A stretch of 64,000 nt of DNA from Gigantopelta aegis (lineage: Eukaryota > Mollusca > Gastropoda > Neomphalida > Peltospiridae). The notes beneath the pieces are model-generated. The model was given only the letters and a program-made list of their open reading frames with translations, made no database searches and was not told where the DNA came from. The DNA lies in contig NC_054712.1 of the NCBI RefSeq assembly GCF_016097555.1, positions 40,846,926-40,910,925 of the forward strand. Reading direction: 5' to 3'. Below, in pieces: positions 37,633-59,534 of this stretch (positions are counted from its first letter, which is position 1; the number at the start of each line of letters is the position of its first letter). Position numbers and translations under genes: made by a program.

Positions 37633-37704
37633 TCAGCATGACATGGACATGATCTGTCTGAAATTGTAACATTCTTCGAGAAAAGGAAATAAAACGTGGG
37701 AATG
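37633..37704 (-). CDS. Unidentified gene, terminal exon k
   Basis: The acceptor ATGCTTTCTTCTCTAG is strongly pyrimidine-rich. The exon is phase 0 and encodes HSHVLFPFLEECYNFRQIMS then MSC and TGA (37633-37635). It joins in phase to exon j (39507-39563). An AATAAA follows. Exons a to k carry about 350 residues with many short amphipathic helices, as in ARM/HEAT-type proteins. I do not recognise the family, and the 5' part is not assembled. Confidence 0.55.
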   Translation of the reverse strand, partial: HSHVLFPFLEECYNFRQIMSMSC

Positions 37705-37864
37705 CTAGAGAAGAAAGCATAACATTAATAACTAAACCTCTTTACAATGAATTTTGGCAGTTAGTAATTGCTATTTCCTCAACGGATCCACAGAACAAAC
37801 AGAATACATATATTTTAAGTAAATGTATTTCTAAAAGTAAAACTGCTAAATTAGTGACAATAGG

Positions 37865-38040
37865 CATTAGGCCCACTGACAGGAATTGATCCTAGACAGG
37901 CAGCATGTCAGGTGAATGCTTTATCACTAGGTTACGTCCCGCCTTGAATCATGAATGGATGAATGTTTAATGTTCTCCCAACACAAACAAATACATGGGC
38001 TATTCAATTATATTGGGTGTGAAACAAGGGTAAATACACA
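37865..38040 (-). mobile_element. Two adjacent SINE fragments
   Basis: 37865-37945 is a family-1 head read backwards (GGTTACGTCCCGCC at its right end). 37955-38040 is a SINE tail of the type at position 1 (GAATGTTTAATGTTCTCCCA, then GGGTGTGAAACAAGGG). Confidence 0.6.
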
Positions 38041-38044
38041 AATG

Positions 38045-39506
38045 ACTGAATCAAGTGTAGCACTAACAGATACTTGGTATGGGTCAGTGACCAGAGGCAA
38101 GGCTTAAACATCAGTTACTCTGGGTCAGTAACCAGAGGCAAGTCTTAAACATCAATTACTTTGGGTCAGTGACTTGAGGCAAGCCTTAAACATCAAGTAA
38201 TTTGGGTCAGTGACCTGAGGCAGGTCTTAAACATCAGTTACTTTGGGTCAGTGACTTGAGGCAAGACTTAAACATCTGGTAATTTGGGTCAGTGACCTGA
38301 GGCAAGTCTTAAACATCAGTTACTCTGGTTCAGTGACCAGAGTCAAGTCTTAAACATGTTACTTTGGGTCAGTGACCAGAGTCAAGTCTTAAACATCAGT
38401 TACTTTGGGTCAGTAACCAGAGGCAAGACTTAAACATCAGCTACTTTGGGTCAGTGACTTGAGGCAAGACTTAAACATCTGGTAATTTGGATCAGTGACC
38501 TGAGGCAAGTCTTAAACATCAGTTACTCTGGGTCAGTAACCAGAGTCAAGTCTTAAACATGTTACTTTGGGTCAGTAACCAGAGTCAAGTCTTAAACATC
38601 AGTTACTTTGTGTCAGTGACCAGAGTCGAATCTTAAACATCAGTTACTTTGTGTCAGTGACCAGAGTCAAGTCTTAAACATCAGTTACTTTGGGCCAGTA
38701 ACCAGAGTCAAGTCTTAAACATCAGTTACTTTGGGTCAGTAACCAGAGGCAAGACTTAAACATCAGCTACTTTGGGTCAGTGACTTGAGGCAAGACTTAA
38801 ACATCTGGTAATTTGGATCAGTGACCTGAGGCAAGTCTTAAACATCAGTTACTCTGGGTCAGTAACCAGAGTCAAGTCTTAAACATGTTACTTTGGGTCA
38901 GTAACCAGAGTCAAGTCTTAAACATCAGTTACTTTGTGTCAGTGACCAGAGTCGAATCTTAAACATCAGTTACTTTGTGTCAGTGACCAGAGTCAAGTCT
39001 TAAACATGAGTTACTTTGGGCCAGTAACCAGAGTCAAGTCTTAAACATCAGTTACTTTGGTTCAGTGACCAGAGGCGAGTCTAAAACATGAGTTACTTTG
39101 GGTCAGTGACCAGAGGCGAGTCTAAAACATCAGTTACTTTGTGTCAGTGACCTAAGTCAAGTCTTAAGCATCAGTTACTTTAGGCCAGTAACCAGAGTCA
39201 AGTCTTAAACATCAGTTACTTTGGTTCAGTGACCAGAGGCGAGTCTTAAACATCAGTTACTTTGGGTCAGTGACCAGAGGCGAGTCTTAAACATCAGTTA
39301 CTTTGGACCAGTGACCAGAGGCAAGTCTTAAACATCAGTTACTTTGGGTCAGTGACCAGAGGCAAGTCTTAAACATCAGTTACTTTGGGTCAGTGACCAG
39401 AGGCGAGTCTTAAACATCAGTTACTTTGGACCAGTGACCAAAGGCAAGTCTTAAACATCAGTTACTTTGGACCAGTGACCAGAGGCAAGTCTTAAACATC
39501 AGTTAC
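38045..39506 (-). repeat. 41-bp minisatellite starting at the donor of exon j, ~36 copies
   Basis: The unit on the minus strand is AAAGTAACTGATGTTTAAGA, CTTGCCTCTGGTCACTGACC, C. It fuses the first bases of exon j (AAGACTTGCCTCAGGTCACT) to its last bases and donor (CCCAAA|GTAACTGATG), omitting the exon middle. The array's right edge is the donor itself at 39506. A marker variant recurs 326 bp apart (about 38481 and 38807), so blocks of eight units were duplicated. Confidence 0.92.
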
Positions 39507-39563
39507 TTTGGGTCTGTCAAGCAGCAACACAAGTTCTGAGGTCAGTGACCTGAGGCAAGTCTT
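39507..39563 (-). CDS. Unidentified gene, exon j
   Basis: A 57-base, phase 0/0 exon between acceptor AACTGTTGATAG and donor CCCAAA|GTAACTG. It encodes KTCLRSLTSELVLLLDRPK, a leucine-rich helix. Phase agrees with exons i and k. The acceptor is weak in pyrimidines, so the exact left border is less sure. The donor is the edge of the 41-bp minisatellite. Confidence 0.5.
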
Positions 39564-40009
39564 CTATCAACAGTTAGTTTGATGTCAAACCCACAAGACA
39601 GTAAGGAACTCTAAAATAAAAATAAATAAATAAGAATATTTCAGTGAGGCTATTTCAAGCTTTTTGTGCAATAGAATTGTCAGTAGCAGAGAATTTTTTT
39701 TTTTTTATATATATCACAAGCCTTTCGATGATAATTTTCCAAATTGGTTTCAAATATATAATGTACAGGTAAATGTATAGTTCTGTGTTTACAATATTAT
39801 ATATTTATCAACAATACAAGCCAAAGAGTTAAAATATTTACTAACAATACACACCAAAGAGATCTAGTATTTATGGCATTTCTTCAACAGTTAATTATAA
39901 CAAACTTTTACAACCTAAAAAATAAAGAGTTGCTTTAATCAATGATTAAAACTAAAAATTGACTTCAAGAAATTAAAATTTTAAATTACAGCATTCATTA
40001 TACACAGTA
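39564..40009. other. Intron, no feature seen
   Basis: AT-rich unique sequence with short A and T runs between exon j and the array behind exon i. Confidence 0.4.
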
Positions 40010-40436
40010 ACTGGCTTGAATGTATGCACTCACCTTATCCAGGGAATAGACACAGGGCAGAGTAACTCACCGTATCCAGTGTATACAAACAGGGTAGAGG
40101 ACTCACATTATCCATGATATACAAACAGGGCAGAGTAACTCACCGTATCCAGTGTATACAAACAGGGTAGAGAAACTCACATTATCCATGATATACAAAC
40201 AGGGCAGAGTAACTGACCTTATCCAGTGTATACAAACAGGGTAGAGGACTCACATTATCCAGGGTATACAGACAGGGCAGAGGGACTCACCTTATCCAGT
40301 GAATACAAACAGGGCAGAGGGACTCGCCTTATCCAGTGAATACAAACAGGGCAGAGGAACTCACCTTATCCAGGGTATAAAACAGGGCAGAGGAACTCAA
40401 CTTATCTAGTGTATAAAACAGGGCAGAGTATCTCAC
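40010..40436 (-). repeat. 35-bp minisatellite seeded at the donor of exon i, ~12 copies
   Basis: Each unit (minus strand) is CTCTGCCCTGTTTGTATACA then CTGGATAAGGTGAGT. It repeats the last ~29 bases of exon i plus its donor GATAAG|GTGAGT. Several units keep a full-consensus donor; others have GATAATGTGAGT or similar. Because 35 is not a multiple of three, use of an internal donor would shift the frame. Confidence 0.93.
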
Positions 40437-40529
40437 CTTATCTAGTGTATACAGACAGGGCAGAGGAACTCTGAGCAGGATCTTTCTGATGAACTCTGCA
40501 TGGGACATCACCTCTGTCAAAGAGATGGG
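40437..40529 (-). CDS. Unidentified gene, exon i
   Basis: 93 bases, phase 0/0, acceptor TTGTCGTTTCAG, donor GATAAG|GTGAGA. It encodes PISLTEVMSHAEFIRKILLR and VPLPCLYTLDK. Matches the phases of h and j. The exon's tail is the seed of the adjacent 35-bp array. Confidence 0.65.
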
Positions 40530-40755
40530 CTGAAACGACAATGGTCAAACTATGTATGGAACAATTGACATTAATGTTTAATTTGGTGTTAGCACAGTTT
40601 ATGTCAGCAACACAGCATTTTCCTAACTTTAATAGATGAATGTGCCCACAAAATATTTAACCACTCTTAAACAATTAATTAGAAATAAAGTGTTTGGTTT
40701 GTTTTTAACTAGCCCAATCAATACATCAAGCAGTCAAATAAGCTATATCAGCTGG

Positions 40756-41015
40756 TTCTTGGGGAAAATGCCACATAACACAAAACTGTTTAAACTTCAA
40801 TTCATACAATTCTGGTTTCTGTACTTGTATATATGTACTTTAAATTCACAATCAATTTTCATCACAAAATTTCGTTTAATTGCCGGTTCTTGGGGAAAAT
40901 CCCACATAACACTAAACTGTTTAAAACTTCAATTCGTACAATTTCTGGTTTCTGTATATACATGTATGTACTTTAAATTCACAAACAATTTTCATCACAA
41001 AATTTCATTTAATTT
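40756..41015. repeat. Two-copy tandem duplication, ~131 bp
   Basis: TTCTTGGGGAAAATGCCACA and TTCTTGGGGAAAATCCCACA start the two copies. They stay similar through TACTTTAAATTCACAA and TTTTCATCACAAAATTTC. Intronic, between exons h and i. Confidence 0.85.
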
Positions 41016-41133
41016 TTTTCACCATGTTGAGACTCTTTTTTGCAACCATTCCCATGAAATTGCCCTTGTATACTCTTTGAAATGCTCTCCACAAAAAAAA
41101 AAGAGAAGCTCACGACTGTTTTCTCAAACAAAC

Positions 41134-41275
41134 CTGTGTAGTCCTGTTAGTAACTTCAGAAGCTCCAGTTTCGAATCTGACACAGACTTGTTGAAAGATG
41201 TGTACCACACATTTTAAGTTTGACTCATGTTTGAATATGTCCATCTCATGCTGAGTGTCTAGCAGAGCAAGGAGT
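41134..41275 (-). CDS. Unidentified gene, exon h
   Basis: 142 bases, phase 2 in and 0 out, between CTGTCTATTTGCAG and ACACAG|GTTTGT. It encodes 47 full codons (LLALLDTQHEMDIFKHESNL, KCVVHIFQQVCVRFETG, ASEVTNRTTQ). The first base completes Gly with GG from exon g. Only this frame is open. No array lies at its donor. Confidence 0.7.
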
Positions 41276-41494
41276 CTGCAAATAGACAGAAATAAAATAA
41301 ATACAAAAATACTTGTTTAAAAAAAAAACCATCCCACTTTTTGAAAATTGAGAACTGTTCACAAATACAAACTGGTGAAGTTCCTTGTATAAATCAGAGA
41401 TTTACCCAGGAGTGTTTGCCAGAGTGCCATGTCTGATGGGAAAATTAATGAGAGTAAATCATACTTGGAATATTTTTTTCAGGCCACAGCATGA

Positions 41495-41985
41495 AGGAAG
41501 AAAGGAAGGAACTGTTTTATTTAATGACACACTCAACACATTTTATTTACGGTTATATGGCGTCAGATATATGGTTAAGGACCACACAGATATATAGAGA
41601 GAGGAAACCCTCTGTCACCACTTCATGGGCTACTCTTTTCGATTAGCAGCAAAGGATCTTTATGTAACAGATAAAAATCAACTTCCACTTAGGGTATTTG
41701 AAACACAGACTCTCAGTACGAGAGTCCAGCGCTCTACCAACTGAGCTAATAGGGAAATTCCCACTAGCTACTGCCAGTAGGAGCACTTTATATTAACACT
41801 ACTACATTTATATGCACCATCCCACAGACAGGATAGTACATACCACAGCCTTTGTTACACCAGTCGTGGTGCACTGGCTGGAATGAGAAATAGCCCAATG
41901 GGGCCACCGATGGGGATCGATCCAAACCCGACCACGCATCAAGCGAGCGCTTTACCACTGGGCTACATCCCGAACCTGGCCACTG
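41495..41985 (-). mobile_element. SINE family 1, interrupted by a nested element
   Basis: The tail is at the left (GAACTGTTTTATTTAATGAC) and the head at the right (GGGCTACATCCCG read backwards). The body is split at GGATCTTT / TATATGCACC by the 41664-41806 insertion. Removing that insertion restores the usual family-1 sequence. Confidence 0.88.
41664..41806 (-). mobile_element. Nested tRNA-like element with TTTAT target duplication
   Basis: TTTAT flanks it at 41659-41663 and 41807-41811. The reverse complement contains TTAGCTCAGTTGGTAGAGCG (box A of a tRNA-like head) and TGTTTCAAATACCC, a decayed box B. The anticodon arm is abnormal, so it is not a working tRNA gene. It is probably another SINE family. 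Confidence 0.65.
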
Positions 41986-42505
41986 AATGATGCAGTACAC
42001 TACCGTATATGAATTTATGTACAACAGACATATATTAAATATATATATATTGTGACTTTTTAGCATAGATGCCATAGAAATTGGGAATTTTTAGTACCAT
42101 ATTCTTTTGGGAAGGGGCCTATGTTCACAGTATGCCTGGATAAATCCCTGTAAATGTTATATTTGCTACATTGGAACCTAAACAAATAATATAAAGTTCC
42201 AAGAATTCACGAGGACAATTATTATGATAATTTTTTTTTAAATAAATTACTTTTGGACATTTTCAATTATTTTAGCAAACATTCACTCAAGTAGGTTTTT
42301 ACATCATGTTAAACTAGAAGAGTCAGAGCATGCCCAGTCACCCAATCACAGCTCTTTTATATTTCACATCACATTATTTATCTACCTGTCAACCAATAAC
42401 ACGACTAATAGACAGTGGCCGTCACTCACACCCAATAGAAAATACTGACTACACAGTGTGAACTAGGAGATGCCACAGAGACCATGGCTGCCTACATTTT
42501 CACTC
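41986..42505. other. Intron, no feature seen
   Basis: Unique AT-rich sequence between exons g and h. No exon or named repeat was recognised. Confidence 0.4.
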
Positions 42506-42506
42506 G

Positions 42507-42509
<3 letters not shown>

Positions 42510-42592
<83 letters not shown>

Positions 42593-42631
42593 AGGGAGAG
42601 GGAGGGAGAGAGGGAGAGAGGGAGGGAGTGT

Positions 42632-42669
<38 letters not shown>

Positions 42670-42720
42670 GAGAGAAAGAGAGGGAGAGAGGGAGGGAGGG
42701 AAGAGGGAGTGAGGACGAGA
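42510..42720. repeat. Purine microsatellite (AG)n with GGGA interruptions
   Basis: About 210 bases of almost pure purine on the + strand, starting as (AG)n and becoming GGGAGGGAGA-rich. The frame across it is an artefact. Confidence 0.97.
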
Positions 42721-42820
42721 GAATTGTCAGTTTTTATTCACAAGCCAATCACTGATTAAACTTTATCAGCTAACTCTAGAAATAAATAGGCTTTTATTCC
42801 TGGAATGTAATTTGTTACAC

Positions 42821-42933
42821 TAAGAAACCGGAGTAGAGTGCGACTTTTAGCAGTTTGAGTTGGAACATTTAAGAAACCTACCCGAGTAGAGTATGACTTC
42901 TAGCTGTGTGACTTAAACATTTAAGAAACCTAC
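42821..42933 (-). repeat. ~51-bp duplications of the exon g donor, 2 extra copies
   Basis: On the minus strand ATACTCTACTTGG|GTAGGTTTCTT (exon g donor) is followed by ATACTCTACTCGGGTAGGTT and then GCACTCTACTCCGGTTTCTT. Each copy holds about 30 bases of exon tail plus about 20 of intron. Confidence 0.85.
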
Positions 42934-43088
42934 CCAAGTAGAGTATGACCACTAGCAGTGTGAGTTGCCATTGACCTGCTAACTAGGTCAATCTCTTTGT
43001 TTTCATTCAGAATGTCGGATAATATGCCTGGATGACGTGACAGTATCTTCACAAACATCTGTCTTAAAGTGACATTTTCATTGTTTTT
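42934..43088 (-). CDS. Unidentified gene, exon g
   Basis: 155 bases, phase 0 in and 2 out, between TTTATTTTCAG and CTTGG|GTAGGT. Encodes 51 codons (KNNENVTLRQMFVKILSRHP, GILSDILNENKEIDLV, SRSMATHTASGHTLL) plus GG. Phase fits f and h exactly. The donor region is triplicated on the intron side. Confidence 0.7.
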
Positions 43089-43239
43089 CTGAAAATAAAA
43101 CCGTATTTCATATGATTGTTCTACTAGTCAGGTACATTCATGACTATCGGGTATCCAGTGCATAACAGATTGTCATACAAGAATTTCACCAGATATGAAA
43201 ACATGTGTGTTACACAAAAAAATCCAGACATTTTAATCT

Positions 43240-43565
43240 TAGAAGGAAATGGTTTATTTAATGACGCACTCAACACATTTTATTTACAGTTATATGGCGT
43301 CGGACATATGGTTAAGGCCCACACAGACACTGAGGGAGGAAACCCGCTGTCGCCACTTCATAGGCTACTCTTTTAGATTAGCAGCAAGGGATCTTTTATA
43401 TGCAACATCCCATAGACAGGATAGCACATACCACGGCCTTTGATGTACCAGTCGTGTTGCACTGGCTGCAGCGAGAAATAGCCCAGTGGGCCCACCAACA
43501 GGGATCGATCCCAGACCGACTGTGCATCGAGTGAGCACTTTACTACTGGGTTACATCATCCCACA
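43240..43565 (-). mobile_element. SINE family 1, full length, in intron
   Basis: The tail AGGAAATGGTTTATTTAATG is at the left; the decayed head (GGGTTACATCATCCC) is at the right. The body is as in the other copies. Confidence 0.88.
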
Positions 43566-44005
43566 CCTTTTAATACTAATGCTTGGGTACTGAGATTAGC
43601 TCTATAGGGTTATAGTTGCATGCTGGTCTACAATGGTGATTTCCTTTTTCAAGATTGTATGCATAGTATCAGCTGAAACTATATTGTAAGTTTTGGATGG
43701 AGACCACAGTAAATTTTGGACAAACAGTCAGCAAAAAACCCGGAATCACTGAATAGACAATTATAAATTTGGAAAACTGTCATCTCTGATTCCAAATGGT
43801 CTCAAAAATATTTTTTCAAGGGCCATAACTTTGTAATAAAAGTCAAACTTGATAATATGTAACTCTACATGATAAAGGTATACACAAAATTTCAGCTCAG
43901 TATCTCGAGGCATTGTGAAAAACTAGTCTGAAAAACTATACGTGGGACAGACCAATAGATGTTAAAGATGTTCTACAACATGAATAATGTCAAGTGACTT
44001 AAAAA
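43566..44005. other. Intron, no feature seen
   Basis: Unique sequence. GGCCATAACTTTGTAATAAA and similar wording is faintly like other intergenic repeats (compare 53205), but not enough to name one. Confidence 0.35.
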
Positions 44006-44009
44006 GGAA

Positions 44010-44342
44010 GGAAGGAAGGAGATGTTTTATTTAACGATATACTCAACACATTTTATTAACGGTTATATGGTGTCAGACATAGGGTTAAGGACCACACAGA
44101 TATTGAGAGAGAAAACCCGCTGTCGCCACTTTATGGGCTACTCTTTTCGATTAGCAGCAAATGATCTTTTATATGTACCATCCCACAGACTGGATAGTTA
44201 CACATACCACTGCCTTTCTTACACCAGTTGTGAAGCACTGGCTGGAACGAGAAATAGTCAAATGGGTCCACCGAGGAGGATCGATCCTAGACCGACCGCA
44301 CATCAAGCAAAAGCTTTACCACTAAACTATATCCTGCCCCAT
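44010..44342 (-). mobile_element. SINE family 1, full length, in intron
   Basis: GAGATGTTTTATTTAACGAT tail at the left and CTATATCCTGCCCC head remnant at the right, with the standard body between. Inserted next to a short GGAA run. Confidence 0.88.
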
Positions 44343-44567: not shown

Positions 44568-44630
44568 CTTGTTTGAAGTATGAAGTCCACTCAAAAATGA
44601 GAGAAGAATTTCACAAAGTGACACCATAAC
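44568..44630 (-). CDS. Unidentified gene, exon f
   Basis: 63 bases, phase 0/0, acceptor CCAATTTTGGCAG, donor AACAAG|GTATGT. Encodes VMVSLCEILLSFLSGLHTSN and K, an amphipathic helix. Matches e and g. There is no tandem array at this donor. Confidence 0.65.
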
Positions 44631-45045: not shown

Positions 45046-45049
45046 TATG

Positions 45050-45661
45050 CAAGTTAAACACTGACCTGGTCATAACACAAACACAATGGTAACACAATGT
45101 TTATCTCAACATGTACAAACATGTACAACACAAACACATCAACACATTGTTAGCTCAATGTATATCCTCAATACACTAACAGGTTTACGTGACAATCATT
45201 AACACACTAACATGTTTACATCAATGAGATGGCTGTTACACCATTAACACACTAACACAATGTTTACCTGACTATCATGATTGTGACATCAACACACTGA
45301 CACACTGTTTACGTCAACATAAATCATTAACACACTAACATGTTTACATCAATTTAATGTGACATCAACACACTAACAATGTCTACATCAATATGATGGT
45401 TGTAACATCATTAACACACTAACAATGTTTACATTAATTTAATGTGACATTAACACACTAACAATGTTTACATCAATGTGATGGTTGTTACGTCATCAAC
45501 ACACTAACGATGTTTACCTGACCATCATGGTTGCTACATCATCAACACACAAACAATGTTTAAATCAATGTGATGGCTGCTACATCATCAACACACTAAC
45601 AATGTTTACATCAACATGATGGTTGCTACATCATCAACATACATGTACTAACAATGTTTAC
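45050..45661 (-). repeat. ~47-bp minisatellite seeded at the donor of exon e, ~13 degenerate copies
   Basis: On the minus strand the exon end CAACCATCACGTTGAG|GTAAACATTGTTAG is repeated as CAACCATCACATTGATGTAA, then ACATTGTTAGTGTGTTGATG. Copies become more diverged with distance from the exon, so the exon edge looks like the origin. Confidence 0.85.
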
Positions 45662-45809
45662 CTCAACGTGATGGTTGTCAGAGTTGGCCAACAGACCTGC
45701 GACATCATCAACACGTTTACCGTCAACCACAGCAGCAAATAACTCTGCAGCACACAACCACGACGGCAGATGATGAGGAATGGACTCGAGATGTTTTGAT
45801 CCAACACTC
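45662..45809 (-). CDS. Unidentified gene, exon e
   Basis: 148 bases, phase 2 in and 0 out, acceptor GAAATCTATTTTCAG, donor GTTGAG|GTAAAC. Encodes 49 codons (SVGSKHLESIPHHLPSWLCA, AELFAAVVDGKRVDDVAGLL, ANSDNHHVE); the first G completes Leu with CT of exon d. Both splice sites of this exon sit in tandem duplications: an array behind the donor and a two-copy duplication over the acceptor. Confidence 0.72.
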
Positions 45810-46205
45810 CTGAAAATAGATTTCTTCTTTCAGTTTTACACAGCGTTACCGAGGTAACTGAAATACAGAATGTTTTCCTCCTGTAATTTTAATTTAGTAA
45901 AGAATGATGAATTCCCACACCTCCTCTACATTCTACTCATGTTGTACCACCCACAAACATAGCGTTAAAACTAACATGAGAAAGATGAGTTTTGATTTTA
46001 AACTCGTGAAAATATATTTTTTATTTCAGTTTTAAACAGCATTACAGATTTCAAACTGAAATACAGAATGTTTTCCTCCTGTAAATTGTAATCTTAATTA
46101 AATATAGAATTATGAATTCCCACCCTTCTCTATATTCTGCTCAATGTTGTACCACCTCCTCAAACAAAAAACCCCCCCAACATATCACAAAAATTAACAT
46201 GAGAA
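45803..46205 (-). repeat. Two-copy tandem duplication over the acceptor of exon e, ~195 bp
   Basis: ACTCCTGAAAATAGATTTCT (acceptor side of exon e, + strand reading) recurs as ACTCGTGAAAATATATTTTT near 46001. Both are followed by TTTCAGTTTTA, AATACAGAATGTTTTCCTCC, GAATTCCCAC and AACATGAGAAA. The second copy lacks the AG needed for splicing. Confidence 0.8.
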
Positions 46206-46239
46206 AACTATGTATGATATGCATTCCATGAACAGGGAA

Positions 46240-46562
46240 GGGGCGGGACGTAGCCCAGTGGTACAGTACTCGCTCGATGCGCGGCTGATGTGGGATCGAT
46301 CCCTGTCAGTGGGCCCATTGGGCTATTTCTCATTCCAGCCAGTGCACCGCGACTGGTATATCAAAGGCCGTGGTATGTACTACCCTGTCTGTGGGATGGT
46401 GCATATAAAAGATCCCTTGCTGCTAATCGAAAAGAGTAGCCCATGATGTGGTGACAGTGGGTTTCCTCCCTCAATATCTGTGTGGTCCTAAACCACATGT
46501 CTGTCGCCATATAACTGTAAACATGTTGTGAGTGTGTCATTAAATAAAACAGTTCTTTCTTT
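46240..46562 (+). mobile_element. SINE family 1, full length
   Basis: GGGGCGGGACGTAGCCCAGT head, GGGATCGATCCCTGTCAGTG box-B region, tail GTGTCATTAAATAAAACAGT then TCTTTCTTT. One of the best preserved heads. Confidence 0.92.
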
Positions 46563-47254
46563 CCATGAACATGGATTGTATTTCAGTACACACCATTAGA
46601 GTAAAAGTTAAAGTTAAAACCCGACACTTGAGTTGTAACAATTACACAACTAACTGTATTATAGTGTATCTAAAATTCAATCAAAGTGAAAAGTGAATCA
46701 AAGGTAACTATTTTATTTTGTTTATGAAGGAAATGTACAATTTCCTGCACTTAACTTGTTTATCAAAGAGATCCTTTGAAAGGAACACTCGAGGAAATTT
46801 CAACTCGGGTTAATATGGACGTGGATATCAACCACTTGGCCAGTGATCGACGGCTCATTGCAAGTTCTGTTTTTAACATTCATTGACATTCTTACTTTTC
46901 AAATCTAACTATCTTCAATGCTTTCTTTTTCACAGAATTTCTTGAAGGTTTTTTATTTAAGTGTTTAGTGGATTTTTTGCTTCTTTTTACCTTGACGTTT
47001 CCATAAAAAGCAGGGTACAAACTCTGGCTTCTAATAAACTAACATCAATGAATGATAGAAGAAAACCTAAAATCACCATACAGGCTAATCAATTATAACA
47101 GCAATCAGCATTTTATATGACCGTTACTAAACTATCTTTAGACTACAGTAAGAAACAACAACAACAAAACACTTTATTACTCCAGTGTTCATATTATATG
47201 ACATGACGGAGAAGACATTTGTCATAGGAAAACCCCCAAATCTAACACTCGAGG
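46563..47254. other. Intron, no feature seen
   Basis: Unique AT-rich sequence between exons d and e; no exon-like frame with splice sites was found. Confidence 0.4.
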
Positions 47255-47645
47255 GACCGGCCTTGGTGGCGTCGTGGTTAGGCCATCAGTCTACAGGCTG
47301 GTAGGTACTGGGTTCAGATCCCAGTCGAGGCAGGGGATTTTTAATCCAGGTACCGACTCCAAACCCTGAGCGAGTGCTCCACAAGGCTCAATGGGTAGGT
47401 GTAAACCACTTGCACCAACCAGTGATCCATAACTGGTTCAACAAAGGCCATGGTTTGTGCTATCCTGCCTGTGGGAAGCGCAAATAAAAGATCCCTTGCT
47501 GCTAATCGGAAAGAGTAGCCCATGTAGTGGCGACAGCAGGTTTCCTCTCAAAATCTCTGTGGTCCTTAACCATATGTCTGACGCCATATAACCGTAAATA
47601 AAATGTGTTGAGTGCGTCGTTAAATAAAACATTTCTTTCTTTTTT
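47255..47645 (+). mobile_element. Composite SINE (family-2 head, family-1 tail), copy 2
   Basis: Same order of parts as 25808-26205: GGCCTTGGTGGCGTCGTGGT, GGGTTCAGATCCCAGTCGAG, then CAACAAAGGCCATGG, AAAAGATCCCTTGCTGC and TTAAATAAAACATTTCTTTC. Confidence 0.85.
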
Positions 47646-48624: not shown

Positions 48625-48804
48625 GATGGATGGGTGTTGGGTGTTATAACTGGGTTACCCGTGAAACCAGTTGGGTGGGTGGGGGAGAGGATGGCGTATA
48701 ACTGAGTTACCTGTTAAACCAGTCAGGGGTGGGGTGGCATATAACTGAGTTACCTGTTAAACCAGTCGGGGGAACGGGGGGAGGATGGCGTATAACTGAG
48801 TTAC
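48625..48804 (-). repeat. Tandem copies of the exon c donor, 3 extra units
   Basis: On the minus strand GGTTTAACAGGTAACTCAGT, then TATACGCCATCC and a C-rich run, repeats three times behind exon c. Unit length varies (about 43-55 bp) in the C-run. A last copy has GGTTTCACGGGTAACCCAGT. Every unit carries about 11 bases of exon end plus the donor. Confidence 0.88.
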
Positions 48805-48902
48805 CTGTTAAACCAATGTTTCACTTGGTGTAGATGAGAAAACAACTCATCGTCCTCTTCACTCCACGACGATAACAGAGACCGCACAGTATCCCAGTGA
48901 AC
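48805..48902 (-). CDS. Unidentified gene, exon c
   Basis: 98 bases, phase 0 in and 2 out, acceptor CTGATTAAACTTCAG, donor AACAG|GTAACT. Only one frame is open: VHWDTVRSLLSSWSEEDDEL, FSHLHQVKHWFN plus AG. Phase matches exon b. Tandem arrays touch it on both sides: donor copies at 48625-48804 and acceptor-side copies at 48903-49345. Confidence 0.68.
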
Positions 48903-49345
48903 CTGAAGTTTAATCAGAGTCTATTACTACAATATTTAACCAGTGTCTATTACTACAAAGTTTAACCAGAGTATATTACTACAAGGTTTAATCAGTGTCT
49001 ATTACTACAATGTTTAACCAGTGTCTGTTACTACAAGGTTTAATCAATGACCATTACTACAAGGTTTAATCAGAGACTATTAATACAATGTTTAACCAGT
49101 GTCTGTTACTACAAGGTTTAATCAATGACCATTACTACAAGGTTTAACCAGTATCTATTACTACAATATTTAACCAGTGTCTAGTACTACAAGCTTTAAC
49201 CAGTGTATATTACTACAAGGTTTAATCAATGTCTATTACTACAAGCCTTAACCAGTGTCTATTACTACAAGGTTTAATCAATGACCATTACTACAAGGTT
49301 TAATCAGTGACTATTACAACAAGGTTTAATCAGTGGCTATTACAT
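48903..49345 (-). repeat. 26-bp minisatellite at the acceptor of exon c, ~17 copies
   Basis: The minus-strand unit is TAGTAATAGACACTGATTAA plus ACCTTG. The sequence in front of exon c, TAGTAATAGACTCTGATTAA then ACTTCAG, is the same unit with a working AG. The array therefore repeats a branch-point-like CTGATTAAAC and the tract before the acceptor. Confidence 0.9.
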
Positions 49346-49434: not shown

Positions 49435-49757
49435 AAGAAATGTTTTATTTAATGACGCACTCAACACATTTTATTAATGGTTATATGGCGTCGGACATGT
49501 GGTTAAGGATCACGCAGATATTGAGAGAGGAAACCCGCTGCTGCCACTTCATGGGCTACTCTTTTCGATTAGCAGCAAGGGATCTTTTATATGCTACATC
49601 CCAGACAGGATAGTACATACCACAGCCTTTGTTACACCAGTTGTGGAGCACTGGCTGGAACGAGAAATAGCCCAATGGGTCCACCGACAGGGATCGATCC
49701 TAGATCGACCACGCATTAAGCAAATGCTTTACCAGTGGGCTACATCCCGCCTCTGTT
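49435..49757 (-). mobile_element. SINE family 1, full length
   Basis: GAAATGTTTTATTTAATGAC tail at the left, GGGCTACATCCCGCC head at the right, standard body. Intronic (between exons b and c). Confidence 0.9.
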
Positions 49758-49794
49758 ACTGACAGATGCATCCACAGATGTCCAAAAAGGTAAT

Positions 49795-50345: not shown

Positions 50346-50384
50346 CCTAGGGAAGCAGATCTTCTCAAGCTAATAAGACCCTGA

Positions 50385-51190
50385 AATATAACAAACTAAT
50401 TACACCCTGAAATATAACAAACTAATTACACCTTGAAATATAACAAACTAATTACACCCTGAAATATAACAAACTAATTACACCCTGAAATATAACAAAC
50501 TAATTACACCCTGAAATATAACAAACTAATTACACCTTGAAATATAACAAACTAATTACACCTTGAAATATAACAAACTAATTACACCCTGAAATATAAC
50601 AAACTAATTACACCCTGAAATATAACAAACTAATTACACCCTGAAATATAACAAACTAATAAGACCCTGAAATATAACAAACTAATTACACCTTGAAATA
50701 TAACAAACTAATTACACCTTGAAATATAACAAACTAATTACACCTTGAAATATAACAAACTAATTACACCCTGAAATATAACAAACTAATTACACCCTGA
50801 AATATAACAAACTAATAAGACCCTGAAATATAACAAACTAATTACACCTTGAAATATAACAAACTAATTACACTCTGAAATATAACAAACTAATTACACC
50901 CTGAAATATAACTAATTACACTCTGAAATATAACAAACTAATTACACCCTGAAATATAACAAACTAATTACACCCTGAAATATAACAAACTAATTACACC
51001 CTGAAATATAACAAACTAATTACACCCTGAAATATAACAAACTAATAAGACCCTGAAATATAACAAACTAATTACACCTTGAAATATAACAAACTAATAA
51101 GACCCTGAAATATAACAAACTAATTACACCTTGAAATATAACAAACTAATTACACCTTGAAATATAACAAACTAATTACACCCTGAAATA
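50385..51190. repeat. 26-bp minisatellite, left part (array split by Tc1 element)
   Basis: The unit is GAAATATAACAAACTAATTA then CACCCT; continued at 52796-53190. On the minus strand every unit reads TTTGTTATATTTCAG|G, a near-ideal 3' splice site. Before the insertion the array had about 46 copies. It lies in the intron between exons b and c. Confidence 0.95.
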
Positions 51191-52795
51191 TACTACTCAA
51201 AAGAATTTAAGGGTCAGACGATATTTTCGACATTATTTTCTGAATGTCAATTATATTAGCTAGACCATAATGTCACGCATGGTATTGTTCCATTTTGACG
51301 AAAGTGGGTCTAAGCAACCCATAAATGAATTAAAATCCACTGTCATTGACACTGTCGACTAGTTCTAATGGCAAAAACATGCTTACATTTGCACGTAAAT
51401 TAGGGTGAAAGCGAAAGTTCTGCTAAGTGCCCATAACTTGCTTTTTCACAAAGCGCTTCATTTGCACGCTTTGCACGTGTATTCCATGTTCCCAATGCTG
51501 AATTTCCGTATAATTGGAGCTTGCGTTCGTGTGCGGTGCACACTCCAAATTTGACAATGGTACGACTTCAACTGACTATCGAAGATCGAGGAAGGGCTAT
51601 TACTTGGCTTCAGGATGGCAATACGCAAAGAAATGTTGCTCTGAGACTTGGTGTCAGTCAGAGTGTCGTTGGGCGACTGTGGCAACGGTACCAAGCAACG
51701 AATTCTGTTCGAAATCGTCCACGTTTGGGAAGACCCCGAAGCACTACAAATAGAGAGGACCGCTACATCACCAATATGGCTCTACGTCAACACACAACCA
51801 CTGCACGCCGATTACGTGACAATCTGCGGACTGCGACTGGAACTCGAGTGTCTGATCAAACCATACGCAATCGTCTGAGAGCCAATAATCTACGCTGCCG
51901 TCGCCAGGCTGTTCGACCACCACTCCTACCACGTCACAAAACGGCCAGACGTCACTGGTGCATGCTTCATCTGCGGTGGCAACGTGTTCAGTGGGGTCGA
52001 GTGATGTTCACTGATGAGTCCAGGTTTAGTCTCCAGTTCAACGACGGTCGGGTTCGTGTCTACAGACGTCCTGGGGAGCGCTTCGCTGACGTTAACGTTA
52101 GACAACGTCACCGGTTCGGTGGTGGCAGCGTCATGGTGTGGGGCGGCATCTCTATCCACCACAGGACCCCCCTCTATGTGGTAGATGGCAATCTGAATGG
52201 AATCCGCTATCTGAATGAGATTATCCGGCCGTTGGTTCTCCCAGGCCTTCAGCAGATTGGCGGCGGGGCAGTTCTGCAGGATGACAATGCCAGACCCCAC
52301 CGCACCAGGGTGGTAACGGACTTTCTCAGACAACAAGGTATCGCCAGGATGGATTGGCCAGCATATTCGCCTGACTTGGCCCCAATAGAGCACGCCTGGG
52401 ACGAATTAGGCAGGAGAGTTCGGGATAACCATGCCCCTCCGGCCAACCTTCATGATCTGGGTCAACTTCTTATGGCAGAGTGGCAGGCCATTCCCAAAGA
52501 GTTCTTCAGACGTCTGATCAACAGCATGAGGCAACGATGTGTCGAGTGTATTCGCGCCAGGGGTGGATTCACACACTATTAAACGAATGTTCTAATGTGT
52601 AAAATCCATGTTTGACAACCTTCAACTTTGACAGCATGTCATGTGACTTTCTTGTATACAGTGACGTTTATTTGTGGTTTTTTGTAAATATGGAACAATA
52701 AATAAAAAATTTGGTTTAGTTTACATCATCAATCTAATACACTTTGAAACTTATTTGGTTATAAACTTTTGACCCTTAAATTCTTTTGAGTAGTA
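51191..52795 (+). mobile_element. Complete Tc1-type DNA transposon, 1605 bp
   Basis: Terminal inverted repeats of 26 bp are identical (TACTACTCAAAAGAATTTAA then GGGTCA; 51191-51216 and 52770-52795). TA flanks both ends (51189-51190, 52796-52797). Removing element plus one TA restores a normal 26-bp unit of the host minisatellite. One uninterrupted transposase gene and an AATAAA (52697-52702) lie inside. Identical ends and an open gene indicate a young copy that may still be mobile. Confidence 0.95.
51557..52582 (+). CDS. Tc1/mariner-family transposase (DD34E)
   Basis: 341 residues. The chosen start ATG at 51557 (context GACAATGG) gives MVRLQLTIED, the usual beginning; the frame upstream of it has only a TTG. 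Order of parts: two helix-turn-helix modules (about 7-46 and 66-112) with a GRPR AT-hook-like motif (58-61) between them, then the catalytic domain with D153 (MFTDESRF), D243 (QDDNARPH) and E278 (PIEHAWDE). The spacing D243-E278 has 34 intervening residues, as in Tc1. The protein would bind the inverted ends and move the element by cut and paste into TA. Length is normal for the family and no break was seen. Confidence 0.95.
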   Translation: MVRLQLTIEDRGRAITWLQDGNTQRNVALRLGVSQSVVGRLWQRYQATNSVRNRPRLGRPRSTTNREDRYITNMALRQHTTTARRLRDNLRTATGTRVSDQTIRNRLRANNLRCRRQAVRPPLLPRHKTARRHWCMLHLRWQRVQWGRVMFTDESRFSLQFNDGRVRVYRRPGERFADVNVRQRHRFGGGSVMVWGGISIHHRTPLYVVDGNLNGIRYLNEIIRPLVLPGLQQIGGGAVLQDDNARPHRTRVVTDFLRQQGIARMDWPAYSPDLAPIEHAWDELGRRVRDNHAPPANLHDLGQLLMAEWQAIPKEFFRRLINSMRQRCVECIRARGGFTHY

Positions 52796-53190
52796 TATAA
52801 CAAACTAATAAGACCCTAAAATATAACAAACTAATTGCACCTTGAAATATAACAAACTAATTACACCTTGAAATATAACAAACTAATTACACCTTGAAAT
52901 ATAACAAACTAATTACACTCTGAAATATAACAAACTAATTACACCCTGAAATATAACTAATTACACCCTGAAATATAACAAACTAATTACACCCTGAAAT
53001 ATAACAAACTAATTACACCTTGAAATATAACAAACTAATTACACCCTGAATTATAACAAACTAATAAGACCCTGAAATATAACAAACTAATTACACCCTG
53101 AAATATAACAAACTAATTACACCCTGGAATATAACAAACTAATTACACCCTGAAATATAACAAACTAATTATACCCTGAAATATAACAAT
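52796..53190. repeat. 26-bp minisatellite, right part
   Basis: Continuation of 50385-51190 with the same unit and the same subtypes (CACCCTG, CACCTTG, AAGACCCTG). Confidence 0.95.
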
Positions 53191-53549
53191 TTAAACCTTA
53201 AAAGTTCAAGGACCATAACTGTCAAAAATGAGTAAGTCGGCATGGAATTCAAACTTGATTTGTAACAGTACTTAATAAATCTATACACAAAATTGAAGAA
53301 AAAAAGTCCTTAAAACTATATGCAGGATGGAGACAGACATGCAGACAGACAGACAGACAGACAGGCAGACAAGCAGACAAACAAAGAGAGTGTTAAAACA
53401 CGACTGTGTGTAGTTGATCAACCACATACCACTCTCTCCCCTTTATCTCATGTCCAGTTACTCCTAACAAGAGTGATCGTTGTTAAACCCAAAAGGACGA
53501 GGAGCAATGAATTAATCTGAATGAATGATACCCAGGAAAATTAACTCAC
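53191..53549. other. Intron with short (CAGA)n tract
   Basis: CAGACAGACAGACAGACAG at about 53341-53380. The exon b donor GTGAGT lies at 53544-53549. No gene on the + strand is supported. Confidence 0.45.
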
Positions 53550-53606
53550 CTGCAGAAGATAAGACGTGACAGAAATCGACAGCGCACAACCCTCCACAAG
53601 ATGAAT
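53550..53606 (-). CDS. Unidentified gene, exon b
   Basis: 57 bases, phase 0/0, acceptor GTTTTTTATTTCCAG, donor CTGCAG|GTGAGT (both strong). Encodes IHLVEGCALSISVTSYLLQ. Phase agrees with exons a and c. No tandem array at its donor. Confidence 0.65.
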
Positions 53607-53739
53607 CTGGAAATAAAAAACAAACAAGGTAACCAGGTGGTAAAATAAGGCCTTACACTTGCCATTAATAAACGTTTATTCATTTCTGTGTGTAGGCCAT
53701 CAGCCCACATAAAACACTTTACGTAATAGTTGGCAATAT

Positions 53740-54012
53740 AGGTAGTACTAAACCAAATAACTTCCGGCTGGGTCAAAGTTCGAGGTGCACCGAACTTTTG
53801 ATAGAGAAGTGAACACCACAAGTCCTGTGATTGGTTATAAATGTGAGTGTGTTGGTTGTAAAAAAATAATAATTTCATCTGGGTAAAAAAAAAGTGCAAT
53901 TTTATTTCATCTAGTACCAATGTGGCGTTTATGTCGGTTGATACGTTGCAGGTAGGAGTTTTAGCCACATATGTTACTATTGTCGTCTATGGGATTTGAT
54001 TTGGTAGTATAC
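53740..54012. mobile_element. MITE-like repeat, copy 3 of 3 (internally deleted)
   Basis: The left end AGTACTAAACCAAATAACTT, then CCGGCTGGGTCAAAGTTCGA, matches 22463. The right end TCTATGGGATTTGATTTGGT then AGTATAC matches the other end. About 250 bp of the interior of copy 1 are missing. Confidence 0.65.
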
Positions 54013-54035
54013 ACCCTATATACACATTTGACATA

Positions 54036-54587
54036 CAGTGGACTCTGTCAGGCAAGATCTAAAACTCTACCAACTTCCAGCCCAATTTTAAAAGAAAAGG
54101 CTCTTCAGTTCGCCGAGCAGCTTGGCATAGCAGACTTTAAAGCATCAGAGGGTTGGCTGACGTCGTGGAAAACTCGTTTTAACATCGAACAATTCAAAGT
54201 TAGCGGGGAAAGTGCAGGTGTCAATCATGACATTGTTGACGATTACAAAACACGCCTACCAACGATAATTGGAGATTTTCGACTCCAAGCATATCTTCAA
54301 TTGTGAAGAGACCGGACTGTTCTTTTGAGCGTTACCTGACAAAACCCTCACTTATAAAACTCAGGCGGCGAAAGGTGGTAAAGTTTCAAAAGAAAGATTA
54401 ACTGTTTTATTGTGTCTGGCTTGTATGACCGTTTCCCAACCATCCATGGGTTCAAATGTCATTGTTGATCATTCAAGAACCATACATGTAACTCTGGATA
54501 AACTCTGACTAAACTGGTCCTCTATGTAAACCGGACTACACGTATTTTGATGGTACTAAGTGAGTCCAGTTTAGACAGAGTCCACTG
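54036..54587 (+). mobile_element. pogo/Tigger-type element, deletion derivative, 552 bp
   Basis: Ends CAGTGGACTCTGTC and GACAGAGTCCACTG are exact inverse copies, each flanked by TA (54034-54035, 54588-54589). Inside is a transposase remnant: a CENP-B/Tc5-type helix-turn-helix (KEKALQFAEQLGIADFKASE, GWLTSWKTRFNI), then after a stop the start of the catalytic domain (FNCEETGLFF, PDKTLTYKTQAAKGGKVSKE). The usual first catalytic Asp (DETGL) is Glu here. The rest of the catalytic core is deleted. Confidence 0.85.
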
Positions 54588-54619
54588 TATTTTGTTTTCT
54601 AACGAAGATTTGTTTCTTT

Positions 54620-55846
54620 TTCTAAAATTACAACGTAACGGTAATTCATGAATTCTCAATAGGCATAGTATAAGTAAAGGTAATTCATGAATTCTCAATA
54701 GGCATAGTATACATAAAGGTGATTCATGAATTCTCAATAGGCATAGTATACATAAAGGTGATACATGAATTCTCAATAGGCATAGTATAAGTAAAGGTGT
54801 TTCACGAATTCTCAATAGGCAGAGTATACATAAAGGTGATTCATGAATTCTTAATAGGCATAGTATACATAAAGGTGATACATGAATTCTCAATAGGCAT
54901 AGTATAAGTAAAGGTGATTCAAGAATTCTCAATAGGCATAAAATACATAAAGGTAATTCATGAATTCTCAATAGGCATAGTACAGGTAAAGTTGATTCAT
55001 GAATTCTCAATAGGCATAGTATATGTAAAGGTAATTCATGAATTCTCAATAGGCATAGTACAGGTAAAGTTGATTCATGAATTCTCAATAGGCATAGTAT
55101 ACGTAAAGGTAATTCATGAATTCTCAATAGGCATAGTATACGTAAAGGTACTTCATGAATTCTCAATAGGCATAGTATACATAAAGGTACTTCATGAATT
55201 CTCAATAGGCATAGTATACATAAAGGTAATTCGTGAATTCTCAATAGGCATAGTACAGGTAAAGTTGATTCATGAATTCTCCATAGGCATAGTATACGTA
55301 AAGGTGATTCATAAATTCTTAATAGGCATAGTATACATAAAAGATGACTCATAAATTCTCAATAGGCATAAGATAAGTAAAGGTGATTCAAGAATTCTCA
55401 ATAGGCATAAAATACGTAAAGATAATTCATGAATTCTCAATAGGCATAGTATATGTAAAGGTGATTCATAAATTCTCAATAGGCATAAAATACGTAAAGG
55501 TAATTCATGAATTCTCAATAGGCAGAGGATACGTAAAGGTGATTCATGAATTCTCAATAGGCATAGTATATGTAAAGGTGATTCATGAATTCTCAATAGG
55601 CATAGTATAAGTAAAGGTGATTCATGAATTCTCAATAGGCAGAGTATATATAAAGGTGATTTATGAATTCAAAATAGGCATAGTATACATAAAGGTGATT
55701 CATGGATTCTCAATAGGCATAGTATATTTATAGGTGATTAATGAATTCACAATAGGCATAGTATACGTAAAGGTAATTCATGAATTCACAATAGGCATAG
55801 TATACGTAAAGGTACTTCATGAATTCTCAATAGGTATCAGAGCTTC
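54620..55846. repeat. 39-bp minisatellite with an EcoRI-like GAATTC per unit, ~31 copies
   Basis: The unit is AGGCATAGTATACGTAAAGG then TGATTCATGAATTCTCAAT. Because 39 bp is 13 codons, both strands show long frames (for example units of LRIHESPLCILCL). Variants change residues freely, so not coding. Ends at a MITE copy. Confidence 0.95.
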
Positions 55847-55847
55847 T

Positions 55848-56000
55848 AGAACTTTATAAAAATCCACTAGCCATGGGATCAGTGATTAATTTTTTTATAT
55901 TTTTTTAATAAATAACATTTTACTAATAGTAATAATCAGATACATGTATGTCACCTAAAAGAGGATGATAGAGCTTAAAAACCCTTAGATTTGGGGTAGG
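55848..56000 (-). mobile_element. Partial hAT-like MITE (same family as 36267-36612)
   Basis: CAGAGCTTCTAGAACTTTAT, then AAAAATCCACTAGCCATGGG, ATCAGTGATT and TAATAATCAGATA are the reverse complement of the right half of the element at 36267-36612. One end is exact at the border of the 39-bp array; the other end is lost. Confidence 0.7.
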
Positions 56001-56485
56001 AAGGTTTTGTAATTATTTCCCTGTTTGATATTGACTCACTCACATTAACAAATGATACTAGCTCACATTATTGTATTATGCCTTTAACTTGGGTGTTTAT
56101 TTCTCTAGTGGATGTGATTACTGTTTGTATAGATTGCTGTCAGCTTAATAAAACATTTTTAAATTCCTTGTCATATGGCCATAAAAGCACCGTATTCATT
56201 CCAAGACCGAGCCTTGGTAAAACATTCCAGATGTTTGATGGTGTGGGTCCCGTGACAATATAATAATTATAATTTAATTACAACAGTTTGTAATAAAACT
56301 AAAACAAATTCTGTTTCCTTCTTTTGTGTTATTATTGTTTGTATGATATGATAACATGTTTTTAAAGTGCAATTTACGTAAGTTCTTTTTTTAACGAACT
56401 TCGGTCACGGGCCATTCAAAAATTGTACGGGTGAGTCAAAGTGTTGCTGTGAGTGGCCCCGATTGGTCAGTCAAAAAATAATCCA
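56001..56485. other. No gene recognised
   Basis: A + strand frame of 61 codons (56078-56263) has no recognisable domain and is inside the - strand gene's intron. The rest is AT-rich. Confidence 0.4.
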
Positions 56486-56489
56486 AAGT

Positions 56490-57843
56490 GCATACCCTGG
56501 TGTGTGTATTTGCTATAGTTATCATGCACAGTGTGTATTTGCTATACTTATCATGTAGTGCGTGTATTTGCTATACTTATCATGTAGTGCGTATATTAAC
56601 TACACTTATCATGTAGTGTGTATATTTGCTATATTCATCATGTAGTGTGTATATTTGCTATATTCATCATGTAGTGTGTGTATTTGCTATATTCATCATG
56701 TAGTGTGTGTATTTGCTATATTCATCATGTAGTGTGTATTTGCTATATTCATCATGTAGTGTGTGTATTTGCTACATGTATATTCATCATGTAGTGTGTG
56801 TATTTGCTACATTCATCATGTAGTGTGTATTTGCTATATTCATCATGTAGTGTGTGTATTTGCATCACGTAGTGTGTGTATTTACTATATTCATCATGCA
56901 GTGTGTGTATTTGCATCCTGTAGTGTGTATTTGCTATATTCATCATGTAGTGTGTATATTTGCTATATTCACCATGTAGTGTTTATATTTGCTATATTCA
57001 TCATGTAGTGTGTATATTTGCTATATTCATCATATAGTGTGTGTATTTGCTATAGTTATCATGTAGTGTGTGTATTTGCTATATTTATCATGTAGTGTAT
57101 TTCCTATATTCATCATGTAGTGTGTGTATTTGCTATACTTATCATGTAGTGTGTGTATTTGCTATATTCATCATGTAGTGTGTATATTTGCTATACTTAT
57201 CATGTAGTGTGTGTATTTGCTATACTTATCATGTAGTGTGTATTTGCTATATTCATCATGTAGTGTGTGTATTTCCTACATTCATCATGTAGTGTGTATA
57301 TTTGCTATACTTATCATGTAGTGTGTGTATTTCCTATATTCATCATGTAGTGTGTGTATTTGCTATACTTATCATGAAGTGTGTGTATTTCCTACATGTA
57401 TATTAATCATGTAGTGTGTATTTGGTATATTTATCATCTAGTGTGTGCATTTGCTATATTCATCATGTAGTGTGTGTATTTGCTACATTTATCATCTAGT
57501 GTGTGCATTTGCTATATTCATCATGTAGTGTGTGTATTTGCTACATTTATCATCTAGTGTGTGTATTTGCTATATTCATCATATAGTGTGTGTATTTGCT
57601 ATATCCATCATGTAGTGTGTGTACTTGCTATATTTATCAAGTATTTACTATACGTATCATGTAATGTGTGTATTTCCTATACTTATGTAGTGTTTGTATT
57701 TCCTATAGTTAACATGTAGTATGTGCATTTGCTATACTTATTATTTCTTGTGTGTATTTGCTATACTTATCATGCAGTGTGTGTATTTGCTATACGTATG
57801 TACTGTCTGCATTTGATATATGTATTGTGTATTTGTTATACAT
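56490..57843 (-). repeat. 29-bp minisatellite seeded at the donor of exon a, ~46 copies
   Basis: The + strand unit is CATGTAGTGTGTGTATTTGC then TATATTCAT. On the minus strand the exon a end and donor TACATG|GTATGTATAACAAATA are mirrored in array units such as TACATGATAAGTATAGCAAA then TACACACAC. Near the exon the copies are most like the donor; farther away they are homogenised. Confidence 0.9.
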
Positions 57844-57845
57844 AC

Positions 57846-57951
57846 CATGTATCGCTCCACACGAGATATAACTTCTTGCATAGTTTGTTGGTCTGGCAGA
57901 ATGCCAAGCTGGTCGGAGAGAAACAGGTGTGGAGGAAGAACACTGACCACC
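57846..57951 (-). CDS. Unidentified gene, exon a
   Basis: 106 bases, phase 2 in and 0 out, acceptor CCTGTTTCTTCTTGCAG, donor TACATG|GTATGT. The chosen frame gives 35 residues (VVSVLPPHLFLSDQLGILPD, QQTMQEVISRVERYM) and fits exon b's phase. The other two frames are also open, so the frame rests on phase and protein-like look. Upstream exons would lie at or beyond 63961. The 29-bp array begins at its donor. Confidence 0.6.
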
Positions 57952-59528: not shown

Positions 59529-59534
59529 AAGTAA

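Follow-up and report, generated by a model that had tools for sequence, protein, structure and literature searches.

Tandem arrays across the 5' splice sites of a FANCA-like gene in Gigantopelta aegis

The stretch of DNA analysed here (the window) comprises 64,000 nt of Gigantopelta aegis contig NC_054712.1, positions 40,846,926-40,910,925, in an assembly of 1.149 Gb and 5,216 contigs. It contains a FANCA-like gene on the minus strand, which runs into the 10 kb upstream of the window; coordinates in this 10-kb locus (L034) are numbered 64000+i. At most of its 5' splice sites (donors), the end of the exon and the start of the intron are repeated in tandem into the intron. Exons a, b, c and e-j in the window were re-derived from acceptors (3' splice sites), donors and reading frames. 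Upstream, exons U1 and U2 were recovered by a codon-usage exon finder, which is weak and did not recover the window exons; exon Ux was found where the codon phases demanded an exon. The upstream search was not exhaustive and other exons may be overlooked there. Only U1 and U2 were located blind to arrays; Ux was located with its array in view. The exons are listed below in order of transcription.

70567-70426 (64000+i), minus strand: exon U1; codon-usage finder, phase, FANCA alignment.
69485-69412 (64000+i), minus strand: exon Ux; phase, FANCA alignment.
68212-68084 (64000+i), minus strand: exon U2; codon-usage finder, phase, FANCA alignment.
57846..57951, minus strand: exon a; acceptor and donor, phase, open frame; in phase with the upstream exon, its start reached by the FANCA alignment.
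53550..53606, minus strand: exon b; donor without array.
48805..48902, minus strand: exon c; acceptor and donor, frame.
45662..45809, minus strand: exon e; acceptor and donor, frame.
44568..44630, minus strand: exon f; donor without array.
42934..43088, minus strand: exon g; acceptor and donor, frame.
41134..41275, minus strand: exon h; donor without array.
40437..40529, minus strand: exon i; acceptor and donor, frame.
39542..39610, minus strand: exon j, to its in-frame TGA; frame continuing from exon i.

Codon phase is kept at 11/11 joins from U1 to j, as checked by hand on the printed sequence. The joined translation (424 aa, U1-j) matches the solved structure of FANCA, the Fanconi anemia group A protein of DNA repair (7kzp_A), with an E-value of 1.3e-10 over residues 44-128 of the translation; a further weak FANCA match lies over exons e-f. 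The main alignment passes through U1, Ux and U2 into exon a without a duplicated segment; because it crosses the joins U1-Ux, Ux-U2 and U2-a, these three are backed by homology. The similarity emerged only after the three upstream exons were added. For the nine-exon translation (a-j), a search of 1719 candidates gave no relatives at E 0.001, Pfam gave nothing above cut-off, and nothing in the PDB matched better than E 0.68; the partial 424-aa translation likewise has no Pfam domain above cut-off. Judged by its sequence similarity, the gene is FANCA-like.

Head-to-tail copies of the last exon bases, the GT and the beginning of the intron extend into the intron at donors a, c, e, g and i. Each junction segment (30 exon and 20 intron bases) was aligned to the next 2 kb of intron and compared with 40 shuffles. 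Scores at a, c, e, g and i are 37, 62, 54, 76 and 75, while the top shuffles reach 23-28. The copied exon tail is 6 bases long at a, 11-14 at c, 16 at e, 34 at g and 35 at i; unit lengths are 29, 43-46, 46, 52 and 37 bp, respectively. Arrays were called by Tandem Repeats Finder (TRF) and by alignment of copies.

56500..57851, minus strand: 29-bp array at donor a with 6 exon bases; TRF 56500-57794, copies aligned to 57851.
48682..48817, minus strand: 43-46-bp array spanning donor c, about four copies including the exon's own, unit ...TTTAACAG/GTAACTCAGTTATA...; TRF on the plus orientation (48682-48815) plus copy alignment, missed by TRF on the minus strand.
45194..45677, minus strand: 46-bp array spanning donor e, with 10 further copies, GT in 7/10; TRF, copy alignment.
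42827..42967, minus strand: 52-bp x2.7 array spanning donor g, with 34 exon bases; TRF, copy alignment.
40028..40471, minus strand: 37-bp x12 array spanning donor i, with 35 exon bases, GT in 9/9 scorable copies.

All three upstream donors carry arrays as well: U1 has an 88-bp unit x1.9 with 5 exon bases, Ux a 58-bp unit x4.0 with 50 exon bases, and U2 an 80-bp unit x6.0 with 64 exon bases and GT in 3/5 copies. In total, 8/11 donors of the gene have arrays. Donor a is the weakest case, as its first copies are degenerate, GT is kept in 1/16 scorable copies and TRF alone ends about 50 bp short of the exon; leaving it out gives 7/11. By eye, the units of different donors look unrelated.

An earlier note on this DNA, made from the window alone, proposed arrays at six donors (a, c, e, g, i and j) and none at b, d, f and h. 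The first five hold. Donors b, f and h are indeed free of arrays, with scores of 17-21 over 2 kb, no better than shuffles, and of 16-18 over 1 kb of intron at exact coordinates. No exon d could be found, and none is needed, as exon c is in phase with e. The arrays in the window do not begin exactly at the donors, as the note had it; they start within the exon, 6-35 bp from its end, and continue across the donor. Its unit of exon tail, GT and first intron bases is correct at a, c, e, g and i once the exon part is widened from 6-30 to 6-35 bases. Its claim that the copies nearest the exon are the most exon-like is weak: such a gradient can be seen in g and c, and not in e or i.

The sixth donor, that of exon j at 39507, is rejected. 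The sequence there is repeated (score 60 against 25 for shuffles) and adjoins an array, but all three frames stop before 39507; the frame from exon i meets a TGA at about 39544-39542. A possible alternative donor, CAG/GTCACT, with its last exon base at about 39550, also lies in repeat-like sequence. Exon j is left out of the donor counts.

38080..39514, minus strand: 41-bp x35 array adjoining exon j; candidate donor relation only; TRF, alignment.

Copies could be aligned in 14 cases, in this gene and in the conserved genes described below, and there their exon part matches the true exon at 82-100% identity; the value for U1 rests on 5 bases, and no copies could be aligned at one kinesin donor (L104). 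Among themselves, copies differ by up to 23% in the exon part. Beyond 15/15 arrayed donors (8 in this gene, 7 elsewhere) the reading frame meets a stop within 105 bp. The possibility that the arrays are coding repeats is rejected on account of in-frame stops in the copies.

The acceptors of the gene differ from its donors. TRF arrays span 0/12 of them; one array abuts an acceptor, and one old duplication was found by alignment.

48908..49343, minus strand: 26-bp array abutting acceptor c, ending 5 bp upstream of it, without exon bases; TRF.
45785..46135 (approximate limits), minus strand: old two-copy duplication over acceptor e, with 17 exon bases; alignment, not TRF.

The two copies at acceptor e are about 200 bp apart and diverged (29/37 identical), with a score of 34 against a best shuffle of 25. 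The contrast between 8/11 donors and 1/12 acceptors has a P of 0.003. Random placement of the 16 merged TRF arrays within the gene's 33 kb gives a mean of 0.45 spanned donors and never more than 4 in 20,000 trials. The permutation's own criterion counts 6 spanned donors in the real arrangement, although it overlooks c and the degenerate first copies of a. The donor arrays of this gene exceed chance.

The introns of the gene and their surroundings contain other repeats. The U2-a intron holds a minisatellite at 58042-62503 (unit about 28 bp, GTACCTGACTGGGAGCGAGTACATCCC), the orientation of which flips at about 59524 to give two head-to-head arrays. At 50366-53189 lies a single 26-bp array (TATATTTCAGGGTGTAATTAGTTTGT) with an acceptor-like TTTCAG; it is interrupted by an insert of about 1.6 kb that has inverted ends (TACTACTCAAAAGAATTTAAGGGTC) and a transposase-like frame; apparently a DNA transposon has landed within the array. 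A 46-bp array at 63378-63970 has a minus-strand unit (TTGCTTTTCTTCAG/GTATATAAAC) that is both acceptor-like and donor-like, and no adjoining exon is seen. In the U1-Ux intron, a 73-bp array x7.3 (L034 5716-6248, i.e. 69716-70248) carries an acceptor-like CTTGTTAATCTTCCAG in its unit; no exon of the FANCA-like gene follows directly. Intronic copies of a tRNA-derived short interspersed element (SINE) lie at about 41500-42000, 43240-43580, 44000-44340, 46225-46580, 47270-47640 and 49440-49760. A minisatellite on C1 (9868704) looks as if it was amplified from that same element.

Conserved genes of the same assembly provide a comparison. Exons were anchored by Pfam matches at 268 places (myosin head 80, CCT chaperonin 64, kinesin 124), of which 143 were examined (41/80 myosin, 42/64 CCT, 60/124 kinesin); this gave 131 called donors and 137 called acceptors, with no donor call in 12/143 exons and no acceptor call in 6. 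L033, the likely acceptor of which abuts an array, was lost among these uncalled exons. Places were chosen mostly by rank, with preference for large contigs and a low number of internal stops; some of those kept may be single-exon copies. Dropped from the myosin (9) and CCT (8) searches were 17/60 loci, all on small contigs. Donors L065, L101 and L095 and acceptor L096 were set by hand after inspection, and several donors at first uncalled were re-fitted under a looser rule.

TRF arrays with a unit of at least 15 bp span 7/131 of these donors: L006, L009 and L108 in myosin, and L065, L101, L104 and L153 in kinesin; in CCT they span 0/35. They start within 30 bp inside the intron at four more (L047, L066, L113, L116). 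Acceptors are spanned at 2/137 (L053 and L125, both CCT), and arrays end within 30 bp before four more (L015, L096, L140, L144). Within the final 90 exon bases ahead of donors, array edges occur at about twice the intron density, which is not a significant difference: 0.62/kb (7 in 11,266 bp) versus 0.32/kb in intron interiors. Including abutting arrays, 11 donor edges are seen versus 5.1 expected (P 0.015). At acceptors, 2 edges are seen versus 4.2 expected; no edges lie 91-150 bp inside exons.

An alignment test, which also detects old two-copy duplications, compared each junction segment with the next 190 bp of intron and required at least 5 bases on each side of the junction. It is positive at 7/129 donors (L006, L009, L101, L105, L108, L118, L153) and 6/137 acceptors (L008, L053, L118, L119, L121, L125). 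L065 has too little flank to be testable, and L104, with 7 exon bases, is missed; L008, L069 and L110 have donor-side copies in the printed sequence that fall below the 5-base rule in the scored segment. The donor/acceptor difference in the TRF data concerns longer or cleaner arrays. Whichever test is used for the conserved genes (7/131 or 7/129), the 8/11 donors of the FANCA-like gene exceed them with a P of 3e-7; this gene may be a hot spot for donor arrays.

Several conserved-gene cases show the anatomy at different stages. L108 (myosin) carries one duplication of 98 bp, made up of 79 exon and 19 intron bases, and is probably the clearest early stage of a donor array. L009 keeps GT in 8/8 scorable copies. 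L006 has, besides its short unit, another copy of about 45 myosin-exon bases in the intron. The 60-bp unit of L101 (kinesin) consists of 52 exon and 8 intron bases with TATAG ahead of the copied exon part, and on its sequence resembles a full mini-exon that has its own acceptor and donor signals. L119 and L121 have acceptor-side duplications with long myosin-exon stretches that TRF misses, in L121 two copies with more than 90 exon bases; an intronic second copy of a whole exon start of this type could open a route to new exons. At L015, at L140 and at 48908-49343 in the window, arrays stop 5-7 bp before the acceptor; apparently the last partial copy supplies the pyrimidine tract.

The whole assembly was also searched for splice motifs. 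Matches to the donor motif MAGGTRAGT form 2176 tandem triplets at spacers of 12-42 bp versus 636 for the reversed pattern (3.4-fold), and 2915 versus 1145 at spacers of 43-73 bp (2.5-fold). Single donor motifs are no commoner than the control (41233 versus 44954). For the acceptor motif YTTYCAGR there are 3713 triplets versus 2901 and 356591 singles versus 225075. Relative to singles, donor triplets are therefore in 3.7- and 2.8-fold excess, while acceptor triplets stand at 0.8-fold. The search may skip simple repeats.

Structures of this kind are known from amphioxus. 'Mirages' are tandem duplications of exon-intron boundaries described there in globin genes and earlier in Adh (Adh3) and others (PMC3087553, BMC Evol Biol 2010), and named alongside PGBD5 and troponin C (PMC3902484). 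Their units are 10-160 bp long, many but not all copies keep AG/GT, both boundaries can be affected, copy number is unstable between alleles, and reverse-transcription PCR suggested normal splicing. The view, taken from the earlier note, that such arrays were undescribed is mistaken. The likeness is anatomical and is known here from the sequence of one assembly alone: the unit spans the exon-intron boundary, the splice dinucleotide is kept in many but not all copies (e 7/10, U2 3/5, a 1/16), and both 5' and 3' boundaries are affected (L053 and L125 by TRF; L008, L118, L119 and L121 by alignment). For normal splicing, the consistent phases and the FANCA alignment are at most indirect signs. What differs from amphioxus is another genome, of 1.15 Gb, the 8/11 donors versus 1/12 acceptors affected in a single gene, and the genome-wide donor-motif excess. 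In a search of literature that includes few subscription papers, mirages did not turn up outside amphioxus, though they may have been published elsewhere. The portions available of papers on earthworm metallothionein introns with minisatellites (PMC12783039) and on C. elegans minisatellites and splicing (PMC4039745) mention no copied splice sites. The 27-bp minisatellite in intron 3 of an abalone TSSK1-like gene (PMC6905558) is an ordinary length-variable repeat in a mollusc intron; splice-site copying is not mentioned in the available part of that paper. As far as found, this is a known kind of structure in a new genome, and what is new is its density in one gene and the donor-motif bias.

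The reading favoured here, with a probability of about 0.7, is that these are mirage-type minisatellites that grew from silent duplications across donors, and that the donors of this gene and, to judge by the motif counts, of some other places also seem to start or keep arrays more often than ordinary intron positions. Each array would originate from a tandem duplication of about 20-100 bp that reaches from the final few tens of exon bases a little way into the intron. The donor nearest the exon would stay on the intact exon and be the one spliced, leaving the protein unchanged; the additional copies would be intronic decoys with in-frame stops after them. The array would then expand and drift within the intron. 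A duplication across an acceptor would place a second AG and exon sequence upstream of the true acceptor, which may limit growth. Acceptor copies seem to become long arrays more rarely, possibly since the first AG past the branch point is used.

A number of results weigh against this reading. The gene was selected for its striking look, and its array-blind part amounts to two donors, U1 and U2 (2/2 with arrays). In the conserved genes, TRF-spanned donors do not differ significantly from acceptors (P 0.097), the 7 donor edges compare with 3.6 expected (P 0.075), and the positions of L065 and L101, two of these seven spanned donors, were set manually with the array already in view. Under the alignment test, donors and acceptors are alike (P 0.78); random flank positions are spanned at 34/332 and 37/344 (about 10%), roughly twice the rate of splice junctions. 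Acceptor-spanning duplications are real, and L119 has its acceptor in about four copies. The triplet counts are of motif matches, not arrays, identified without reference to exons; large arrays weigh heavily in them, one yielding about 74 of 100 places listed at spacers of 12-42 bp, and the triplet site C1:9868704 looks SINE-derived. The conserved-gene sample argues against a strong general donor effect.

A competing explanation is possible but has less than an even chance: duplications may occur evenly along genes with no bias in birth, selection purging those that damage exons and sparing those that only copy a donor or acceptor, and the FANCA-like gene would be an extreme draw. In conserved genes, edges before donors are not significantly above intron interiors, no edges lie deeper inside exons, and donors are spanned no more than acceptors. 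Junctions are also spanned less than random flank positions, which is what constraint should produce. For the conserved genes, tolerance of random duplications suffices. However, it does not account for the donor excess of this gene or for the donor-triplet excess. A filter can only reduce density, yet 6 spanned donors here compare with a maximum of 4 in the random placements; likewise, donor motifs exceed the control as triplets and not as singles. For this gene and the triplet excess, the simplest reading, though unproven, is that arrays are born or survive more often at donors.

A stronger version of donor bias, which is unlikely on present data, holds that 5' splice sites are hot spots of tandem-repeat birth in this lineage, several-fold and gene-dependent, with this gene as an extreme. 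Binding of the spliceosomal U1 particle, pausing or R-loops at the donor would promote local duplications, and selection against such copies would account for the quiet conserved genes. Repeated seeding at exon-intron borders, as the earlier note proposed, is compatible with the 8/11 donors of this gene and with the genome-wide excess of tandem donor motifs; the conserved genes do not show it.

Very improbable is a footprint of intron gain, in which introns are made by tandem duplication of AGGT-bearing exon segments (Rogers-type). Local duplication across an exon-intron boundary is common to both, the units carry AG/GT, and the model is established elsewhere (potato RdRp, PMC4974935; PMC3087553). 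Intron gain of this kind has a copy reaching the acceptor; here the copies lie inside an existing intron and imply no new one. The donor arrays stop short of the acceptors, of which TRF arrays span none and abut one, and the sole old duplication sits at the acceptor end of its intron, at exon e. The introns extend through kilobases of other sequence to ordinary acceptors. Since donor arrays do not reach acceptors, the model of PMC4974935 does not fit.

There is similarly little chance that the donor copies are kept by selection, e.g. as reserve donors or by holding U1 near the exon. GT is present in all scorable copies of some arrays (i 9/9, L009 8/8); in others it is mostly or partly lost (1/16 at a, 3/5 at U2). 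In conserved genes, donors with an array across them are no weaker than the rest (6.5-10.5 versus a median of 7.5, with a P of 0.07 in the opposite direction). Donor strength, whether higher or lower, is not supported as a cause by these scores.

An artefact of a wrong exon model, chance or assembly error can practically be dismissed: in its favour are the faulty model of exon j and the failure to find exon d. Against it stand the FANCA homology, the agreement of the codon phases, the occurrence of such arrays in myosin and kinesin exons that are highly conserved, and copy divergence of up to 23% in the exon part, unlike assembly stutter.

The position of array edges relative to donors and acceptors is a simple test that can be applied to any annotated genome. 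Natural introns with multiple donors allow study of how the spliceosome chooses the first among near-identical donors. If donors truly start duplications more often than other sites, transcription or splicing leaves a readable mutational scar, which would explain how many intronic minisatellites arose and, in part, how introns grow; under the hot-spot reading, introns would record past donor use.

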